DNA of 64,000 nt, taken from the NCBI GenBank assembly GCA_017849585.1, contig JAFIGT010000012.1, forward strand, positions 1 to 64,000, in the 5' to 3' direction. A program made the position numbers and the translations under genes. Each line of letters opens with the position of its first letter. Position 1 is the stretch's first letter. Origin of the DNA: Verrucomicrobium sp. (GTDB taxonomy: Bacteria; Verrucomicrobiota; Verrucomicrobiia; Methylacidiphilales; UBA1321). Shown one piece after another: positions 28,369 to 41,987 of the stretch. The notes under the pieces are model-generated. The model was given only the letters and a program-made list of their open reading frames with translations. It had not been told where the DNA came from and did no database searches.

Positions 28369-28441
28369 GCTCCCATAGCTTAACGGATAAAGCAACGGTC
28401 TTCTAAACCGTAGAGTGTTGGTTCGATTCCAACTGGGAGCG
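28369..28441 (+). tRNA. tRNA-Arg (anticodon TCT)
   Basis: The 5' strand GCTCCCA and the 3' strand TGGGAGC form a 7-bp acceptor stem. The anticodon stem ACGGT/ACCGT holds the loop CTTCTAA, giving anticodon TCT (reads AGA). The T-arm is GTTGG-TTCGATT-CCAAC. CCA is not encoded. The 3' part (28397-28442) is repeated exactly at the right end of the island (41942-41987), so this gene is the integration site and its 3' half was probably replaced by an identical element-borne copy. Confidence 0.95.
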
Positions 28442-28442
28442 C
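28397..28442 (+). repeat. attL, left copy of the 46-bp direct repeat
   Basis: It runs from the 3' base of the 5' anticodon stem strand through the T-arm to just past the acceptor stem. The second copy is at 41942-41987 with no mismatch. The next bases differ on both sides. Its position next to the integrase gene is typical of tRNA-targeted islands. Confidence 0.95.
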
Positions 28443-28530: not shown

Positions 28531-29847
28531 ATGGCAAAGCGGCGCAAGGCAAAGCTCAAGGTTCACCGCAAAGAGTTCCCCCGTGTACGGGAAATCATCT
28601 CCAGAGGACAACTCTTCTATTCGGTTGATTGCCGAAAGAAGGGGACTCTGGGCAAGCAGGAGACCTATTCTAACTTGGAGGAAGCTCTCGCCTATGCGGA
28701 GACGGTAGGAAAAGAGCAAAAGACATCCGGCACCGAAAGCCTCGACATCACAGCCAATCTGCGGTTGATGGCGTTAGAGTGCGAAAAGGAATTGTCTGCT
28801 TTCAAAAAGACGATTCGGGATGCCACGACTTATTACGTTGCTCATCTTAAGGAAGACTACGCCAAAAAGAACAGCAAACCTCTTACGGAATGCTTGGATG
28901 AATTTTTGAAAGATAAGGCTGATTCCACAGAAAAAGTTCGTAGCAAGCGGACATTGGACGAACTGAAAGTCCTGTCTAGGCGACTCAAAAACGCATTTCC
29001 GGCATCAAAGGTTGCTCAACTCGATGAAAGCGATATTCGCGCTCTCTTAAAAAAGGAATATTCGGCGCGTACCAAAAAGAACATCATCAACAAGGCGAAT
29101 CAGTTTTTCAGATGGACAGTCAAAAAGGGCTATCGTCTCAAAAATCCTTGCGAGCACATCAATATTCACGTCCCGAATCAGGATGAGATTGTCAAACTGA
29201 GTGCTCAAGAAGCCTTGGATTTAATGCGTAAGTGTGAGTCCGATTTCCCAGAGCTTATTGCGTATTCGGCGGTTTGTTTATTTGGCGGACTGCGCCCAAA
29301 TTCCGAGGCTTTGGGATTAACTTGGGAAAACATCTACCTCAATCAAAAGGTGCCGCAGATTCGTATTTTAGCGTCTACCTCCAAGGTCAAAGAAACCCGC
29401 TTATTTGAAATTGAAGAGAATCTAGTCCAATGGTTGACGTATTATGGTAAAGGGAAAACTGGATTAATTGTCCCCGAGAATTTACGACAACTTACTGAGG
29501 CTTTGAGAATTTCCTTGGGGTATAAATTACAGGACGAAAATGAAAAAGGGCGCGAATGGGTTCCCGATTGCATGCGCCACTCGTACGCTTCCTACTGGCT
29601 GGCGAAACACAAAGACCGATACAAATTGGCTGAATACATGGGGACTTCTTTGACCATGATTAAAAACCACTACAAAAACGTGGTGTCACCGGAAGAATCG
29701 GAAAATTTTTGGGGTATTATCCCTAAGCCGCTTGCTGAAGCTGCGGAGCTACGCAAGAAGAGCGGTAAGCAGTTGGACTCTTCCCTATTATTGACTCGCT
29801 CACGTCGTCGGCAAACTCCTGTGCGAGTTGCGCCCGACGCATCTTGA
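28531..29847 (+). CDS. int: Tyrosine recombinase (island integrase)
   Basis: A 438-residue site-specific recombinase encoded 90 bases from the tRNA. An N-terminal arm-binding part (residues about 1-75) and a SAM-like core-binding domain (about 110-200) precede the catalytic domain. The first catalytic Arg is in LFGGLRPNSEALGL (about residue 254), box II is PDCMRHSYASYWLA (about 347) and the catalytic Tyr is in IKNHYKNVV (about 380). The usual box II His before Arg is Asp here. It should integrate and excise the island at the tRNA 3' half. Its composition is AT-rich like the rest of the island. Confidence 0.92.
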   Translation: MAKRRKAKLKVHRKEFPRVREIISRGQLFYSVDCRKKGTLGKQETYSNLEEALAYAETVGKEQKTSGTESLDITANLRLMALECEKELSAFKKTIRDATTYYVAHLKEDYAKKNSKPLTECLDEFLKDKADSTEKVRSKRTLDELKVLSRRLKNAFPASKVAQLDESDIRALLKKEYSARTKKNIINKANQFFRWTVKKGYRLKNPCEHINIHVPNQDEIVKLSAQEALDLMRKCESDFPELIAYSAVCLFGGLRPNSEALGLTWENIYLNQKVPQIRILASTSKVKETRLFEIEENLVQWLTYYGKGKTGLIVPENLRQLTEALRISLGYKLQDENEKGREWVPDCMRHSYASYWLAKHKDRYKLAEYMGTSLTMIKNHYKNVVSPEESENFWGIIPKPLAEAAELRKKSGKQLDSSLLLTRSRRRQTPVRVAPDAS

Positions 29848-30335: not shown

Positions 30336-30761
30336 TTAAGGAACGGGATTGCTCAAATCTATTTGAAAACCAGTAGGAAGAGTTTCGCCGTCCCCTGCTC
30401 TAGCCGTAGGCGCAGTAGCCGCTGTCGGTATAGAGTAAATGTCATACCCCATTTCCAACATTATCTTTTCTCTTAAAGGTAAATCATGCCAATTAATGGC
30501 TCCATGCTCTGACTCATATTTCAGGCGCAAAGCTAATTCCTCAGCTTTTGCGCGAGGAGCGCGGCTTAATCCTCGTTCAGCTAGCCGTGCCTTATTACGG
30601 TCATTCAAATTACCCGTAACCTTCTCTTGAGGGGTTGCGCTGGCTGCGGTGGTTACGGTTGCACCTTCAAGCAGGTTCTCTTGTCGCAAGAGACCAAGAA
30701 CCTCACGTAAAGAGTCGGCGTCAGCAATGGTGATATTCAAGGAAACCGTTATATTTTTCAT
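30336..30761 (-). CDS. Hypothetical protein of the island
   Basis: A 141-residue protein starting with ATG at 30759-30761. The N-terminal 35 residues (KNITVSLNITIADADSLREV) have a ferredoxin-like beta-alpha pattern. A middle basic part (NDRNKARLAERGLSRAPRAK) and a helical segment HGAINWHDLPLREKIMLEMG follow. No family recognised; a DNA-binding accessory or antitoxin-like protein is possible. It stands alone between two gene-free stretches. Confidence 0.6.
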   Translation of the reverse strand: MKNITVSLNITIADADSLREVLGLLRQENLLEGATVTTAASATPQEKVTGNLNDRNKARLAERGLSRAPRAKAEELALRLKYESEHGAINWHDLPLREKIMLEMGYDIYSIPTAATAPTARAGDGETLPTGFQIDLSNPVP

Positions 30762-31330
30762 AAATATCCGCTATTTAATTAGCTAAGGAGAGAATATTTC
30801 AGCAAAAATTTCGCTTAATAAGCTTATTTCGAGCAACTTAAATCTATTTTCTGGCTATGTAAATTATAATTTTGGCGCAAAATATAACTCAAGATGCTGG
30901 ATTAGGTATCAACTCATTCAGTAAGACATCAAGAACAAGGAACCATCTCCTTGTCAGGTAGTTCTTTTATTTGAGCGCAAAGGCACGTTTTAGCGGCGCG
31001 GCTCAATAAACTATCAAAGGATACTCTCTTTTCCTTTGTCGCCTTATACGTCGTTTTAGGAATTAAGTCAGAAACTCTGATTTATTGGTATCAGGTATTT
31101 TTAAAAGAAATGCGCCGAATCCATTATTTTGGGTTTTGCGCCTATAAAATAATCAAAAGAAAGATTACTTTTTAAAGAATTAGCCAAAAAGTTTTGTGCG
31201 CTCATATACCACACAATTAAACAACTATTATCTTACATTAAATCTAAGAGGATATATTCATTCATTTGATTTGAGCATAGTTATCCTTAAGCCTTAACAT
31301 ATAATTTATATTGAATTCGGCGTAGCATTA
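30762..31330. other. Gene-free AT-rich stretch with several hairpins
   Basis: No plausible gene on either strand. Hairpins seen: AAGAAC/GTTCTT closing an inner ACAAGG/CCTTGT stem (about 30930-30966), CAAAGGA/TCCTTTG (about 31014-31038), TCAGA/TCTGA (31068-31080), GCGC-GAATCC/GGGTTT-GCGC (about 31111-31141) and TAATC/GATTA (about 31149-31167). CTCAA near 30887 and TTGAG near 30971 could close a multi-branched domain around the first hairpin. This is the left part of a 1.3-kb region that may encode structured RNA. Confidence 0.4.
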
Positions 31331-31332
31331 GT

Positions 31333-31530
31333 CAATTGATTGTTCTTGTTTTCAATTTCCTTCATATAAAAATATTAAGTTAATGTATCGTCTTGGCTTG
31401 GGCGGCCTTATTTATCTAATGATAAAGGTGAGCTTCTTTAAATTAGCCCAAAGCCGCGACGACACATCAGTCGGAGCGCGGGCGAAGATAAATAACAAGA
31501 ACAATATTTAAAAGATGAAGCTCGCCGTTT
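31333..31530. other. Structured region with long-range helix, candidate RNA domain
   Basis: TTGTTCTTGTT (31340-31350) is exactly complementary to AACAAGAACAA (31492-31502). Between them lie GGCTTGGGC (31395-31403)/GCCCAAAGCC (31445-31454), a hairpin CCTT-TTATC-TAAT-GATAA-AGG (31405-31428) and a CG-rich hairpin CCGCG-CGAC/GTCG-CGCGG (31453-31481). GGTGAGCTTC (about 31428-31437) also pairs with GAAGCTCGCC (about 31519-31528), which would form a pseudoknot or alternative fold. GC-rich stems in AT-rich DNA point to selection on RNA structure. Strand not determined. Confidence 0.4.
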
Positions 31531-31644
31531 TAATTTACAAAATTACTTCATTAAACTTATCAAGATTAATATTATTAATATACATTCTTGATTAAAAATA
31601 GTAGCGGCTCGCAGAGACGCGAATTTCAATAAAAGTACATAAGC

Positions 31645-31990
31645 ACAACAGTCCCTAGGAACGCATTTTGCGCTAGGGACTTTGCAAGCCTTGAAATTAC
31701 TTTCAAGGCTACAGGAGCTATCGTAGGCTTAAGGTTTCCAAGGATGGCCTGTGTAGCACTTTCGCGTGCTATCTCCTGCGTTTGTCGCCCCTCATTATGA
31801 GGGTATGTCTACTTGTCTCTTTTAGGGCGACCTTAAGCGAAATTTTGTTATTCCGCTGCTTTGCATTGCGTCTTGCGATTGTCTCCCGACGATTAAACAA
31901 CTATCGCCGATTATGTCCCGCCTTACCTTCATGCAACCTTAATTTCTTGGCTTCGGCTCACAAGCATTATGTGACGAAACCCTTCGTTTT
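31645..31990 (-). ncRNA. Candidate structured noncoding RNA of the island
   Basis: On the minus strand a promoter-like sequence (31997-32025) precedes about 345 bases full of perfect helices: GTCGCCC/GGGCGAC (31784-31790 and 31825-31831) around CCCTCA/TGAGGG; CAGGAG/CTCCTG (31712-31717 and 31773-31778) enclosing TAGCAC/GTGCTA (31754-31759 and 31766-31771) and AGGC/GCCT, a three-way junction; a 10-bp stem (31687-31696 and 31701-31710) with loop GTAA, a GNRA tetraloop only on this strand; and GTCCCTAG-CGC/GCG-CTAGGGAC (31651-31680) near the 3' end. I could not match it to tmRNA, RNase P, 6S, GOLLD, ROOL or another family from memory. A 43-codon TTG-initiated basic frame inside is noted but not called. 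Confidence 0.45.
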
Positions 31991-31996
31991 AAGATG

Positions 31997-32025
31997 TCAT
32001 TATTATTATAAATAGCGGCAGTCAA
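31997..32025 (-). promoter_or_regulatory. Promoter-like sequence for the candidate RNA
   Basis: On the minus strand TTGACT (32025-32020), a 17-base spacer and TAATGA (32002-31997) form a sigma70-like pair. It is upstream of the hairpin-rich stretch and downstream of the 32.1-kb gene. Confidence 0.4.
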
Positions 32026-32067
32026 AAATTCAAAAAAATCATTAAAAATATAATTGCCTCAATTTGC

Positions 32068-32538
32068 TTAACTTTGTTTTGGGACAGGAAGCGGCCATTC
32101 GCCGTAAATATCCTTTATGATGGCAGGGTCTTTAATTGCCTTTTGAAAACTATGCCATGCGATTGGGTCTCGAACTGAATCGGGACAATATTGTGATTGC
32201 ATAGAAGCGGCTCGAACCACTCCACCAAGCGTTCTATCAATAGCCTTCGTCGAATCGTCTCTCGTTAAGCCAAGATTGCAGGTAAGTGAACTAATAATAG
32301 CCCAATAATCGGGTTTGCCTCTCGCTTCATTAAGGATGCTAGAAACTATTTTATCGTACGTCACTCCCGCAGGTAATGAAATCGTTACGCTGAGGTCGTT
32401 ATCATCAAGAAGTTCTTCGGAGGCAGCAAGTAAGTTGGAATCCCATGTAGAGGCTACTTGGCGACTTACTCGGTTTTGATGCAGAATATATATAGCATGC
32501 CGTATACTTCTTAACCATAGTATTAAGTGCTTCACCAT
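32068..32538 (-). CDS. Hypothetical protein downstream of the PvuII-type endonuclease
   Basis: A 156-residue protein with ATG at 32536-32538 and a basic N-terminal helix (MVKHLILWLRSIRHAIYILH). The rest is mixed alpha/beta with no motif I recognise (PDYWAIISSLTCNLGLTRDD, GGVVRAASMQSQYC). It lies 57 bases after the endonuclease on the same strand, so it may be co-transcribed with the controller and endonuclease genes. Whether it belongs to the restriction system is not known. Confidence 0.6.
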   Translation of the reverse strand: MVKHLILWLRSIRHAIYILHQNRVSRQVASTWDSNLLAASEELLDDNDLSVTISLPAGVTYDKIVSSILNEARGKPDYWAIISSLTCNLGLTRDDSTKAIDRTLGGVVRAASMQSQYCPDSVRDPIAWHSFQKAIKDPAIIKDIYGEWPLPVPKQS

Positions 32539-32595: not shown

Positions 32596-33150
32596 TTAAC
32601 TATCTGCCTTTTCTGGATTTAATGGAGGAGTTATTGGAAAAATGGGAATTTCATGGACGGCCGCTTTGTAAATAAGAGTGCCATAGCTTTCTACAAATTT
32701 AGTCGGTATCTTGGGATTGTTGATATCTTTTCCTCCGTCAGTATGCCACTTTGTTTCCCATTTTTTGAAAAATGGCTCTTCCAAAACCGAAGGCTCCATA
32801 TAATAGACCGATTGAAGTTCTATTCCTTTATAAAAGCCAAAAAACCATCCGACTTTCCGATATTTAGCTATAATGGTTGGATTCAGATGATGATGGGTAG
32901 TGAAACTCTTAACCAATAAGACATTTGCTGACTTCAACTCATATTCTTTACCATCTTGGTCTTTAGCATCGTTTCCTTCACGGCTACCAAGAACTTTCAA
33001 TCCCGTAATCAAGATAAGTTGAAGAAGTTTCCCTCCATTGTCCTGAAAAATATCTCCGATACCATGTTTAGAAGCTAATTTTTGGTATTCGCGTATACTT
33101 GGGAAAAGTTTTTCCAAAAGTGCTGCATCGGGATGTGGAGTCCGCTTCAT
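32596..33150 (-). CDS. pvuIIR: PvuII-like type II restriction endonuclease
   Basis: A 184-residue homologue of R.PvuII (157 residues, cuts CAGCTG), recognised from shared blocks [47 protein letters not shown] and [12 protein letters not shown]. The catalytic triad corresponds to Asp61, Glu71 and Lys73 (D58, E68 and K70 in PvuII). The DNA-recognition His pair (H84/H85 there) lies in the THHH block and the recognising Asn in DINNPK. It acts as a homodimer leaving blunt ends. About 25 extra C-terminal residues (from IYKAAVHE) are not in PvuII. Its ATG overlaps the stop of the controller gene. Confidence 0.95.
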
Positions 33151-33377
33151 TCGGCGCTCCTGTCACTGAAAAGGATATTTATCGGAACTTTCAACGCTAC
33201 GGCGATACGCTCAATGTTATCGATTGAGATATTACGCTCGCCACGCTCAATGGAACCAATGTAAGTACGGTGCAATTCCGCCAGCTCTGCAAAATCTTCC
33301 TGTGACAACCCTTTCTCTTGGCGAAATAAGCGCACATTTTTCGCAAATGTCTTTCTCAAGGAGCCGAGTTTTGGCAT
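33147..33377 (-). CDS. pvuIIC: Controller (C) protein of the PvuII-type system
   Basis: A 76-residue helix-turn-helix protein of the XRE type: [20 protein letters not shown], then [20 protein letters not shown]. This is the form of restriction-modification controller proteins. C protein binds C-boxes upstream of its own gene, first activating and later repressing the C-R operon, and so delays endonuclease synthesis until the DNA is methylated. It is upstream of and overlaps the endonuclease gene, and is divergent from the methyltransferase, exactly as in PvuII. Confidence 0.92.
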
Positions 33378-33415
33378 GCTCTGAGATTGACCAAAATGAT
33401 GCTCTTATATCTACA

Positions 33416-33426
33416 GACTTTAAGTA
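33416..33426. promoter_or_regulatory. Candidate C-box between controller and methyltransferase genes
   Basis: GACTTTAAGTA fits the C-box form GACT-N3-AGTC except for the last base. It lies 39 bases upstream of the controller start. Nearby ATGCT and AGCAT segments, around 33400 and 33427, form a wider imperfect dyad around it, leaving room for a second site. Confidence 0.5.
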
Positions 33427-33458
33427 GCATTTTAATGTGGCTCTGCTAAACCATATCC

Positions 33459-34436
33459 ATGATTACAACTCCAAGTTACTTTACCCAGAATGGAGCCGCC
33501 TACTTAGGCGACTCAGTCAAATTACTTCAGGAGCTATCTGATTCGACCATTGATTTGGTTGTAACTAGTCCTCCTTTCGCCTTGCAGCGACAGAAGGAAT
33601 ATGGAAACAAAGAGCAAAGTGAATATGTCGAATGGCTGACCGAATTTGCGAGGCTCGTATATGCTAAATTGAAACCGACAGGGAGCTTTGTTTTAGATTT
33701 GGGTGGGGCTTACGAAAAGGGGATACCCGTACGCAGTTTATACAACTTTCGCGTTCTTATTCGTTTTTGCGACGAAGTTGGATTCCGTTTAGCAGAAGAC
33801 TTTTATTGGTTTAATCCGTCTAAGCTACCCAGTCCTATCGAATGGGTTAATAAGCGCAAGCTACGTGCTAAGGATTCAGTGAACACAGTTTGGTGGCTTT
33901 CAAAAAGCGAGTGGCCTAAAGCAAATGTGAGTCAAGTTTTGGCTCCCTACAGTGATAGAATGAAAAAGTTAATAGCTGACCCAAGCGCCTATTATACTCC
34001 CAAAAAACGCCCAAGTGGACACGACATTGGAGAAGGATTTGCTAAGAACAATGGCGGCGCTATTCCTTCGAATCTTTTACAGATTCCAAATAGCGAATCG
34101 AATGGTCAGTATCTTTCCGGTTGCAAATTAGTCGGTGCGCGTCAGCATCCAGCTAGATTTCCAATTAAGTTGCCAGAGTTTTTTATCAAATTCTTAACAG
34201 AACCGGGCGATGTCGTACTCGACATATTCGCAGGGTCTAACACTACAGGTCAGGCTGCTGAACAACTGCAAAGAAAATGGTTAGCCTTTGAAAATGACCG
34301 CGAATATTTAGCTGCTTCAACTTTTCGTTTTTTTGACAAAGATGCCTCTGAGGATGAGTTGAAACACGTTTACCAAGACATTTTGGACTCAAAAAGTATC
34401 GATTTACGTGCAAAGAAAGAATTAAACCTCTTGTAA
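33459..34436 (+). CDS. pvuIIM: PvuII-like N4-cytosine DNA methyltransferase
   Basis: A 325-residue homologue of M.PvuII (336 residues), sharing the catalytic motif IV TSPPFALQRQKEYGNK, then PVRSLYNFRVLIR, FYWFNPSKLPSPIEWVNK, VLAPYSDRMKKLI, RPSGHDIG, HPARFP-KLPEFFIK and the AdoMet-binding motif I DIFAGSNTTG. Motif order (IV before I) marks the beta class. It methylates N4 of the inner cytosine of CAGCTG by analogy, protecting DNA from the endonuclease. It is divergent from C and R, with 81 bases between. Confidence 0.95.
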   Translation: MITTPSYFTQNGAAYLGDSVKLLQELSDSTIDLVVTSPPFALQRQKEYGNKEQSEYVEWLTEFARLVYAKLKPTGSFVLDLGGAYEKGIPVRSLYNFRVLIRFCDEVGFRLAEDFYWFNPSKLPSPIEWVNKRKLRAKDSVNTVWWLSKSEWPKANVSQVLAPYSDRMKKLIADPSAYYTPKKRPSGHDIGEGFAKNNGGAIPSNLLQIPNSESNGQYLSGCKLVGARQHPARFPIKLPEFFIKFLTEPGDVVLDIFAGSNTTGQAAEQLQRKWLAFENDREYLAASTFRFFDKDASEDELKHVYQDILDSKSIDLRAKKELNLL

Positions 34437-35156: not shown

Positions 35157-36080
35157 TTACTTTCCTGAATAAGTTCCAAGTCCAATCGTTGCGCCGATGC
35201 GAGCAACAAGTTTTTGCTTAAAATCATCCATTGCATTTCTGTTCCACTGGATAAAATTATACTGCTTATTGTCAAAATGAACCTTGTTTAGACTAGTCTC
35301 TTCCACCGTCCAAATAACTTCCTTTCCCAAACCCTTGGCAAATCCAGCTTCATAGTAGACGCCTCCTCGATTTCCGGTAAAATCGGCTATCATAAATTTG
35401 CAGCGACGAATACCAGCAAGAATTTCGTCAATAATTTGGTTATTGTGTGGGTGCTTGTCAATCCGAACGGCTTTATATTTGGTTTCTTGAATGGCTCCTT
35501 TAATAGCGTGTTCATAGATTTCTTCCATCGAAGATTTAAACCACATTGCAACAAACACTTCTTGGCTATCCGTCTTTGAATATTTTATACTCTCAAGGAA
35601 ATCCCATCCCTTCGGCGAAATTAGATAGCTGTTGCCATCTTTTTCAAGATAGGATTTTCCATCAATGAGATAGCCATCAAGTAGATAGATAACCTCAGAA
35701 TAATCTTTACTCCAAGAGGCACTCAACAAATCCCAATCTTCACTTAATGGTACTATCTCACGACTGATTCCGTAATTTATTTTTTTTGCCAAGTATTTAA
35801 GCAGTTTTTCTGCTCTTTCGCCAACTGATGGCGTTGGTATAGTTTTAAAGAATTCAATATTTTCTTTTGTAATATAAAAACCGCTATTTTCAAAAAGATA
35901 GCTGGATACATTCGTGCGTTGTTGCTGAATATATGGGTAACGATGTAAATTTATGCAAACACTCTCATTTATCTTATAGCTTGAGCAGCGACGGCATTTA
36001 ATTTCAAAGAAATTCTTTCCCCTAGGCGATTCGATTTCGATTCCAACTCTTTCACAAATTGGACACTTTTCCATGCTCAT
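35157..36080 (-). CDS. Zinc-ribbon protein with deoxyribosyltransferase/TIR-like domain
   Basis: A 307-residue protein. The N-terminus has a four-Cys zinc ribbon (C6, C9, C29 and C32; KCPICER and IKCRRCSSY). The middle is helical. The C-terminal 120 residues (EVFVAMWF, AVRIDKHPHNNQIIDEI, MIADFTGNRGGVYYEAGFA, GLGKEVIW) match the nucleoside 2-deoxyribosyltransferase-like fold related to TIR and other NAD-cleaving effectors, with the likely catalytic Glu near residue 244 (YYEAG). Such domains are used as nucleotide-depleting effectors in anti-phage systems. Sensing by the ribbon and defence function are inference. It is a single gene. Confidence 0.75.
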   Translation of the reverse strand: MSMEKCPICERVGIEIESPRGKNFFEIKCRRCSSYKINESVCINLHRYPYIQQQRTNVSSYLFENSGFYITKENIEFFKTIPTPSVGERAEKLLKYLAKKINYGISREIVPLSEDWDLLSASWSKDYSEVIYLLDGYLIDGKSYLEKDGNSYLISPKGWDFLESIKYSKTDSQEVFVAMWFKSSMEEIYEHAIKGAIQETKYKAVRIDKHPHNNQIIDEILAGIRRCKFMIADFTGNRGGVYYEAGFAKGLGKEVIWTVEETSLNKVHFDNKQYNFIQWNRNAMDDFKQKLVARIGATIGLGTYSGK

Positions 36081-36116
36081 AATGATTCTATATTTATGCG
36101 AAGACCGCTAAACGGA

Positions 36117-36806
36117 TTAAGTCTGCGTTGTCTTAAGATTTTTCCTGATTTTTGAATGCAAGGTTTTACCTATTCCAGAGACTTTCAAAAGCTCATCGTC
36201 TGTCGCTGTATCAATATCAGAAGCAGTCTTAAACCCAGCGTCAAAAAGATTCTTAGCGGTTTTCATTCCAATGCCCGGAATTGCAGTCAATTCCTTATAA
36301 AAAAATGACCTTGGGAAATCTTCATAATACCTCTTCAGTTTCAACCAAATTTCTTTATTATGCGGAGAACTTTTCGAGAGAATGGATAGCAGCTTCAGTT
36401 TCTCCGAAATGGATTTATCGCTTTCGACAATTTTACGAAAATCCTTGAGAAAGGGAAGGTACTCAGACGCTTTGGTGTAACCAATGTCAGAGGCATAAGT
36501 TTTTTCTTCTTCTTTAGAATCAGGAGCTTTTGCGCCTAACTCAGCCCATGACTTGACGCTATAGAGCCATATTCCATCCGCTTCTGTACCGTAGCTGGGT
36601 GTTTGACTGGGTAAGCCATCAAAGGATTCACCGTGATGTTCCAGAACAACAAGAGGCGTACGTATTTGTAGTGTTGCACTAAAAATAAGTCCTTTAATGA
36701 GGTCTGAATTTCCTATTGCTGTGGCGTTGTCTTTAGATTTAAAGAAAAAATGACGCGATTGCCCTGCCGTATCTCTTTTCCTAAAAATCCAATTTAAAAT
36801 TCCCAT
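36117..36806 (-). CDS. Helix-hairpin-helix protein of the island
   Basis: A 229-residue protein. Residues about 170-225 hold two helix-hairpin-helix units (TAIPGIGMKTAKNLFDAGF and LLKVSGIGKTLHSKIRK), which bind DNA non-specifically. The N-terminal 100 residues (NWIFRKRDTAGQSRHFFFKS) are unassigned. It starts at 36806 and lies 36 bases before the zinc-ribbon gene on the same strand, so the two may be co-transcribed; a DNA-sensing partner is possible but unproven. Confidence 0.7.
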   Translation of the reverse strand: MGILNWIFRKRDTAGQSRHFFFKSKDNATAIGNSDLIKGLIFSATLQIRTPLVVLEHHGESFDGLPSQTPSYGTEADGIWLYSVKSWAELGAKAPDSKEEEKTYASDIGYTKASEYLPFLKDFRKIVESDKSISEKLKLLSILSKSSPHNKEIWLKLKRYYEDFPRSFFYKELTAIPGIGMKTAKNLFDAGFKTASDIDTATDDELLKVSGIGKTLHSKIRKNLKTTQT

Positions 36807-39742: not shown

Positions 39743-41188
39743 ATGCATATTTCAAAAATTACTCTTCACAATTTCAAAGGCTTCAAAGATGACTGCACTA
39801 TTAAGCTCGATAAGGGCATAAATTTCTTTGTTGGTGACAATAATTGCGGGAAATCATCTATTTTCGAAGCCATTGATTTTATAAGAGCCAAGAAATCCAG
39901 AGATGAGGTCATAACAAAAAATGCAACCGAGAGTGACTACGTATCTGTAGAAATTGAGCTTACAGGCGACAGGTTAGAGGCATTACTTGAAACAGATTCA
40001 CTAAAAAAATATAAAGATTATCTGATAGATAATTCTGGAGTGAAAACGCTACGCATAAAGCGTTCGAGCAAGGACGAAAATATCACGCAGGGTAATAAAC
40101 CCAAGGCGTTATCAATTGCAAATGTTAGAGTTTTCAATGAAAAGTCGAATCAGTTTGAAAATCCAACTGGGGTTGATAACACAATCACGGCATTGTTTGA
40201 TGCACAATTTGTTTGGGCAGATACAAATTCTGGAGATATAGCGGATTTCCAGAAGACCAAGCTTTGCGGGAAACTCATTACTGCCATCACTAAGGATTTC
40301 GTTAAATCTGACACTTGGAAAAACTTCCAGCAATCACATGAAGCAACTTTTGGCGAAGGTGAAAACAGTTTGGCGGCAGTATTGAAGCCTATAGAGATAA
40401 AATTGCGAGATATACTAGTTGAACAATATGGAGAAACAGAAGTTCGCTTTACCTTCACGCTCCCAGAAATTGAAAGCTTTTTTAAGACCGGAAACATCTC
40501 GTTGTCTGAAAACGGAATTGAAACAAGCAGTGCTGAAAAAGGAACTGGTATGCAAAGGGCGTTAGCTCTTTCGCTTATTCAGGTATATGCTGATGTTTCC
40601 TCAAGTGGTGACGATTCTAAGCCCATTTTGTTTTTCATTGACGAGCCAGAAACATTTCTGCATCCGCAGGCACAAAACAAACTTCTTAATGCCCTAGAAA
40701 AACTATCTACAAAATCACAAGTGGTTATCATCACCCATTCGCCATATCTTTTGAAAAAGTACAAAAAAGATACACATTCGATGAATGTTTTTTCAAAGAT
40801 TAAAGAAAGCGGTCAGAATAAGGTTGCTCTAGGCAAAGAATTTGACCTGTTCGGTAACTCAAGTCCGAGTTGGGGTGAAATAAACTACTATGCTTTCGGC
40901 GTAAATTCAGAAGAGTTTCATAATGAACTTTACGGATTTATTCAGGCGAAGTTAGTCGAAACAGACGATAAGTTTGAAAAACAAAAACACTTTGATTTGC
41001 ATTTAGCGTCAAACGGCTTTACGCAAGATAAAGATTGGAGCAGAGGTTCCATGCGAATGAAGCACACCTTGGCAACATATATTAGAAACTTCATCCATCA
41101 CCCTGAAAACACGGAAAATAGCAAGTATTCGGAAAACGAATTAGCTGAATCAACTCAAAAATTGATTGTCCTATTAAAGGCAATGTAA
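39743..41188 (+). CDS. OLD-like AAA ATPase with C-terminal HEPN-like motif
   Basis: A 481-residue SMC-like ATPase. Walker A is GDNNCGKSS (residues 31-39), the ABC-type signature region is EKGTGMQRALALSL (about 264-277), Walker B is ILFFIDEPETFLHP (about 293-306) and the switch His is in VVIITHSPYLL. There is no TOPRIM domain as in OLD nucleases. The C-terminal helical part (about residues 345-481) contains RNFIHH at about 448-453, the R-N-X3-H form of the HEPN ribonuclease motif. It likely senses phage DNA or RNA and activates RNA cleavage, alone or with the upstream gene. Function is inference. Confidence 0.75.
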   Translation: MHISKITLHNFKGFKDDCTIKLDKGINFFVGDNNCGKSSIFEAIDFIRAKKSRDEVITKNATESDYVSVEIELTGDRLEALLETDSLKKYKDYLIDNSGVKTLRIKRSSKDENITQGNKPKALSIANVRVFNEKSNQFENPTGVDNTITALFDAQFVWADTNSGDIADFQKTKLCGKLITAITKDFVKSDTWKNFQQSHEATFGEGENSLAAVLKPIEIKLRDILVEQYGETEVRFTFTLPEIESFFKTGNISLSENGIETSSAEKGTGMQRALALSLIQVYADVSSSGDDSKPILFFIDEPETFLHPQAQNKLLNALEKLSTKSQVVIITHSPYLLKKYKKDTHSMNVFSKIKESGQNKVALGKEFDLFGNSSPSWGEINYYAFGVNSEEFHNELYGFIQAKLVETDDKFEKQKHFDLHLASNGFTQDKDWSRGSMRMKHTLATYIRNFIHHPENTENSKYSENELAESTQKLIVLLKAM

Positions 41189-41553
41189 CCATAAGGTTAA
41201 CATCAGCTTTTTAATGTCTAGCTATTTACAAAATTCCCAGCTGTAACAGCGGCTTTTCACGGATGCGTGATATGGCTAACGCTAATAGGAGAACATATCT
41301 AAGATGGATATATGTGCAAAGGAATCCGGTGAAAAACTCCGGTACTTATAAGCGCGTCCCCTCTGGTCGAAATTCTCATGTAAGCCGATTTTTGATTTGG
41401 AAGATTGGAGGGAGCGCCTTTCTTTTAATGCAAATTTAAATGTCAAGCAATATTTTAAATAAAATTGATTTTTCTTTGCCGTTTTATCAATTGCTCGAAA
41501 TTCGATGACTGTTGCCGACTTGGTTTGATGAATACTTTGACTATCCTGAATCT
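41189..41553. other. Gene-free stretch between ATPase and right island end
   Basis: About 365 bases without a good gene. Its middle (41235-41400) is the structured stretch described separately; the rest is AT-rich DNA without clear features. Confidence 0.5.
41235..41400 (+). ncRNA. Candidate structured RNA, partly cobalamin-riboswitch-like
   Basis: This non-coding stretch has hairpins GCTG/CAGC (41240-41250), TCACG-GATG-CGTGA (41257-41270), ACATATC/GATATATGT (41293-41315) and CCGG/CCGG (41326-41342). The stretch 41318-41342, with AAAGGAATCCGGTGAAAA and a closing CTCCGG, resembles the P5-P6 core of cobalamin riboswitches, and AAGCCGA near 41383 resembles a 3' element. The CCCGC and GCCACUG boxes are missing, so a true riboswitch is doubtful. 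A CAGCTG (PvuII) site lies at 41238-41243. Confidence 0.35.
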
Positions 41554-41733
41554 ATGACAAAGCCTTCTCGCAAGCCTGCGACGGTTTTACAGGCGTTTGA
41601 CTGGTCAAAGAGCGCGGCGTTACGGCGCGATAAAAGTAAGATGCTGATGATTAGCGCGGCGCAATCTGCGAAGCTGCTTAACGAAAATCAGGGCATGCCT
41701 TTGAAGTCTATTCAAAGGAAGCGCAAGGCTTAA
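41554..41733 (+). CDS. Small basic protein near attR
   Basis: A possible 59-residue basic protein starting MTKPSRKPATVLQAFDWSKS; an alternative TTG start 14 codons upstream exists. The sequence SAALRRDKSKMLMISAAQSA and a Lys/Arg-rich end suggest nucleic-acid binding, for example an excisionase-sized protein, but no motif confirms it. The next 208 bases to attR hold no gene. Confidence 0.4.
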   Translation: MTKPSRKPATVLQAFDWSKSAALRRDKSKMLMISAAQSAKLLNENQGMPLKSIQRKRKA

Positions 41734-41793
41734 GTTTTGCGGTAAAAATGGCTCATTCTAAGATGGAGTTTCGCGCCTTTTTTCCGCTCTCAT

Positions 41794-41809
41794 TTTTGCT
41801 TTGCAAATT
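41794..41809 (+). repeat. Candidate integrase arm-type site, right end
   Basis: TTTTGCTTTGCA (41794-41805), overlapping CTTTGCAAATT (41799-41809), matches two words at 28489-28515. It lies about 130 bases inside attR. Confidence 0.45.
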
Positions 41810-41932
41810 CATCCCAAAAAATGTTCAATTTTGACCGATTTGCAATGCAATGGGATGTAAAGTTGGATTTCTTTAAATTACGCAACTACTTAATGAAAAG
41901 ATAATTATAAAATTTTGTAAAAATAGAAAAAT

Positions 41933-41987
41933 GCTCCCCAAGGTCTTCTAAACCGTAGAGTGTTGGTTCGATTCCAACTGGGAGCGC
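41933..41987 (+). repeat. attR with a minimal tRNA-like fold
   Basis: The 46-bp copy of the tRNA-Arg 3' half lies at 41942-41987. The bases just before it, GCTCCCC at 41933-41939, are complementary at six of seven positions to the acceptor 3' strand TGGGAGC in the repeat. Together they could fold as a tRNA without a D-arm (acceptor, anticodon and T stems). GCTCCCC comes from the island side, so the element's own attachment site may carry it. A functional tRNA is unlikely. Confidence 0.85.

Follow-up and report, generated by a model that had tools for sequence, protein, structure and literature searches.

What does a mobile island carry in a long stretch of DNA that holds no genes? The question is raised by about 1.3 kb within the window, a 64,000-nucleotide stretch of DNA analysed here, which comes from a contig (JAFIGT010000012.1) of the 4.8-Mb draft genome of Verrucomicrobium sp. 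A preliminary description had proposed a structured RNA of the island, about 345 nt long, read from the minus strand and equipped with its own promoter.

The island itself measures 13.5 kb and is bounded by perfect 46-bp repeats of tRNA-Arg: attL, in the 3´ part of tRNA-Arg(TCT), at 28397-28442 and attR, the second copy at the end of the island, at 41942-41987, both on the plus strand. It is AT-rich, with a GC content of about 0.40 compared with 0.58 in the surrounding DNA, and encodes a tyrosine integrase (28531-29847, plus strand), relatives of which were absent from the viral contigs and genome contigs searched. Positions 32596-34436 are occupied by a complete PvuII-type restriction-modification system consisting of an HTH regulator (the controller gene), a PvuII endonuclease sharing about 60% identity with the Proteus vulgaris enzyme, and a DNA methylase; none of the 97 relatives searched carries such a system. 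Further genes comprise a pair (35157-36806) encoding a TIR/nucleoside-deoxyribosyltransferase-like protein and a helix-hairpin-helix protein, both with good matches solely to PHROG families of no assigned role and, judging from sequence, possibly an undescribed defence pair, and a gene for an OLD/PtuA-like ATPase of 481 aa (39743-41188) with weak matches to retron effector families; no reverse transcriptase was seen within the island. By its gene content, the element may be termed a defence island. A second gene-poor stretch of about 750 bases (41189-41941), with a sole ORF of 73 aa, precedes attR.

The gene-free stretch extends from 30761, the start of an orphan ORF of 141 aa (30336-30761), to 32068, the end of an orphan ORF of 156 aa (32068-32538). 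Both ORFs lie on the minus strand, the former directly downstream and the latter directly upstream of the putative RNA. Relatives of the 141-aa product were absent from the viral contigs and genome contigs searched, and those of the 156-aa product from the viral contigs searched. Neither a gene nor a pseudogene was found in the stretch between them. Its longest ORF of note (77 aa, with a TTG start) was judged not convincing, and a Pfam scan with stops masked, covering five of the six frames (three of them in part), gave no match. No coding signal was seen in the region. A decayed gene as its source was rejected, the frames scanned showing no sign of one.

Pronounced secondary structure was found instead. 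The six or more perfectly complementary stems formerly noticed within 31645-31831 were all located on the minus strand, and this part folds with z about -5 relative to shuffles (-5.2 for 31630-31850 on the minus strand and -3.9 for 31600-32040, no shuffle folding as well in either case). They form a domain (domain 1, 31645-31840, minus strand) that contains hairpins with GUAA, GCGAAA and AAA loops together with crossing 9-bp and 7-bp helices. The 10-bp stem with a GTAA loop is situated at 31687-31696/31701-31710, its loop reading GUAA on the minus strand; a stem thought to comprise 8+3 bp is indeed present, but its actual size is 9+4 bp (31650-31658/31673-31681 plus 31662-31665/31669-31672). 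Another stem lies at 31754-31759/31766-31771. The 7-bp helix (31711-31717/31773-31779) was also confirmed, but it crosses the 9-bp helix (31727-31735/31830-31838), and in place of the plain three-way junction noted before, the two would form a pseudoknot or represent alternative states, judging from the crossing perfect helices alone. When the entire region of 1316 nt is folded, the energy model favours the 7-bp helix (pair probability 0.65 versus 0.005 for the 9-bp helix). A motif, CTTAAG/CGCTTAA, is repeated at 31285, 31725, 31831 and 30811; owing to this recurrence several RNA helices are mutually exclusive, and these could be a switch.

Sliding-window folding revealed, in the range 31320-31560, a second domain (domain 2, 31335-31509, minus strand), in which a long stem containing G-U pairs is closed by a 12-bp helix (31339-31350/31494-31505, with a pair probability of 0.98 in the 1316-nt fold). 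The original estimate of about 345 nt is therefore too small, as the structure reaches at least 31335. The best-supported extent of the candidate large structured non-coding RNA is 30860-31998 on the minus strand, with uncertain ends; it folds with z -6.8 on the minus and -4.9 on the plus strand, and 31335-31998 with -5.5 and -4.5, respectively (40 dinucleotide shuffles each). The 3´ half by itself (30745-31330) is not unusually structured (z -1.4), and comparison segments elsewhere in the island score mostly near 0, with one at -3.0.

Strand preference was compared separately. In a 900-nt comparison z was -5.9 on the minus versus -3.7 on the plus strand, and for part of domain 2 (31320-31479) -4.4 versus -1.8, the G-U pairs of its stem being kept on the minus strand only. 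The full 1316-nt fold is alike on both strands (z -4.5 and -4.9), and 30745-31330 leans slightly to the plus strand. In two comparisons, every segment containing the core gave the stronger z on the minus strand. The minus-strand bias, the G-U pairs and the GNRA loop point to an RNA. These observations also bear on a reading at the DNA level, according to which the inverted repeats serve the island as an origin of transfer or replication or as a recombination site, and not as an RNA. Islands without a relaxase can carry just an oriT in gene-free DNA, as is generally known, and several perfect hairpins are indeed clustered here in one place. Nevertheless, the island contains no DnaA boxes, neither attC sites with their R sequences nor iteron-like direct repeats were found, and the three strand-related features just named indicate RNA. 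We regard a DNA element as quite improbable.

Do the ends of the gene-free region belong to the same structure? Long complementary segments link them. A 10-bp helix would join 32009-32018 (5´ arm, overlapping the promoter-like region) with 30768-30777 (3´ arm, immediately before the start codon of the gene at 30336-30761), both on the minus strand, with a pair probability of 0.97 in the 1316-nt fold. Furthermore, 30805-30818 (minus strand) is a 14-nt perfect complement of 31833-31846 and rivals a helix of domain 1, at a pair probability of only 0.25. Seven long perfect helices were counted in the region against 0.95 in block shuffles, none of 500 reaching seven, although an AT-rich segment elsewhere in the island also has six, and GC-rich host DNA has no fewer than the RNA region. 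Long-range helices equal to the best one here arose in 6 of the 500 block shuffles. We therefore rely on the core (31335-31998), whereas the predicted helices that join the ends are regarded as possible only.

The 10-bp helix deserves attention for another reason. The structured RNA might be a 5´ untranslated region controlling the 141-aa gene in cis, the helix masking the stretch before its start codon. The RNA lies directly upstream of this gene on the same strand, and the high pair probability of the helix fits such an arrangement, but a leader of 1.2 kb would be exceptional, the 586 nt closest to the gene are not unusually folded, a promoter-like site lies nearer to the gene (30892-30863), and the 5´ arm may be situated upstream of the transcript start. 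Overlap with the promoter-like region may indeed leave that arm out of the transcript. A leader function is, in our opinion, unlikely, and an RNA acting in its own right is preferred.

For this RNA, the promoter-like pair proposed earlier (TTGACT-N17-TAATGA, 31997-32025) is present on the minus strand. A better pair, TTGAAT-N17-TATAAT with 10 of 12 matches, occupies 32033-32005 on the same strand and predicts a start near 31998. Its position suits the RNA, but the four promoter-like sites of the region correspond to chance level (6.4 +/- 2.0 in shuffles). The RNA end showed no intrinsic terminator. Transcription would proceed leftward from near 31998, and the 3´ end would fall somewhere between 31335 and 30760.

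Relatives of the candidate were sought widely. In agreement with the preliminary description, which could not match it to a named family, an Rfam search of the region gave nothing at gathering level, and the matches of a permissive search were weak, eukaryotic or unrelated, and well short of the cut-off. The GOLLD model matched nothing in the genome as a whole at E up to 10, nor anything in the region, its weak matches in control genomes being below cut-off; the ROOL model likewise found nothing, whether in the genome (E up to 10), in the window or, by the permissive search, in the region, and no positive control matched it either. Searches by blastn covered 190 relatives, 388 genomes of the phylum and 286 of the class, as well as phages and plasmids, and yielded short chance matches only; two short matches were rejected as homologues, both lying inside response-regulator-like genes. 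Single-sequence covariance models of both domains, run on 241, 188 and 40 genomes, gave a sole match outside the window, marginal and partial (E 0.35). Limited scans of viral contigs for five exact RNA motifs produced six loci, the best-looking of which was rejected because a protein-coding gene contains it and its fold is poor. The host genome has one copy of the element, and both same-genus genomes searched lack it. No homologue was found by any of these routes, which limits our confidence.

The same lack of homologues in all collections searched would be expected of a functionless remnant of decayed mobile sequence, or of inverted repeats arisen by chance, and the region is AT-rich, non-coding and single-copy. 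Folding energy by itself is insufficient to establish a functional RNA. Still, the fold scores lie far beyond those of shuffles and the frames scanned retain no trace of a decayed protein; we consider this explanation quite improbable as well.

Strand bias, multi-domain fold, crossing helices and lack of coding content together make a large non-coding RNA the best reading. The general traits of large ornate RNAs are found here: hundreds of non-coding nucleotides, elaborate folding and a putative pseudoknot, the last deduced from crossing helices. We therefore retain the earlier proposal of a minus-strand structured RNA of the island, its size and promoter excepted. Most likely, though with moderate confidence, the gene-free region of the island encodes one large structured non-coding RNA, present in single copy and transcribed leftward, which would act as a product and not as the leader of the downstream gene.

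Several large RNAs of mobile elements invite comparison. ROOL (RF03087), found on phages and prophages and often near tRNA islands, has a large, complex fold with pseudoknots, and GOLLD (RF02032), in many cases over 800 nt, is a mobile-element RNA of no known function (PMC12286853). The candidate resembles ROOL in its size, complex fold including a putative pseudoknot and location on a mobile element, but it resides on a defence island and not on a recognisable prophage; with GOLLD it shares being a large RNA of a mobile element. Neither model gave a match, no positive control having matched in the case of ROOL. Phage ICP1 and its satellite PLE produce abundant ORF-less transcripts (PMC7567579). 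The likeness, drawn by description, lies in an ORF-less mobile-element region of about 1 kb, that of ICP1 yielding a transcript of ~800 nt; theirs were demonstrated by RNA-seq, while the candidate is known from sequence alone. The phage-borne ROOL and GOLLD probably act as structural assemblies made of RNA alone, or cages, and by analogy with them (PMC12286853) a structural, RNA-only role is our likeliest guess.

More tentatively, and with considerable doubt, the candidate, about 0.7-1.3 kb in size, might represent a large ornate RNA of a new class, with a pseudoknotted core and long-range helices connecting its ends, located on a defence island and working as an RNA-only structure or machine. 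To our knowledge, few large ornate RNAs of bacteria have been found. If the interpretation is true, one more such RNA, unrelated in sequence and residing in a defence island, would widen the class and would tie large ornate RNAs to phage defence or island biology.
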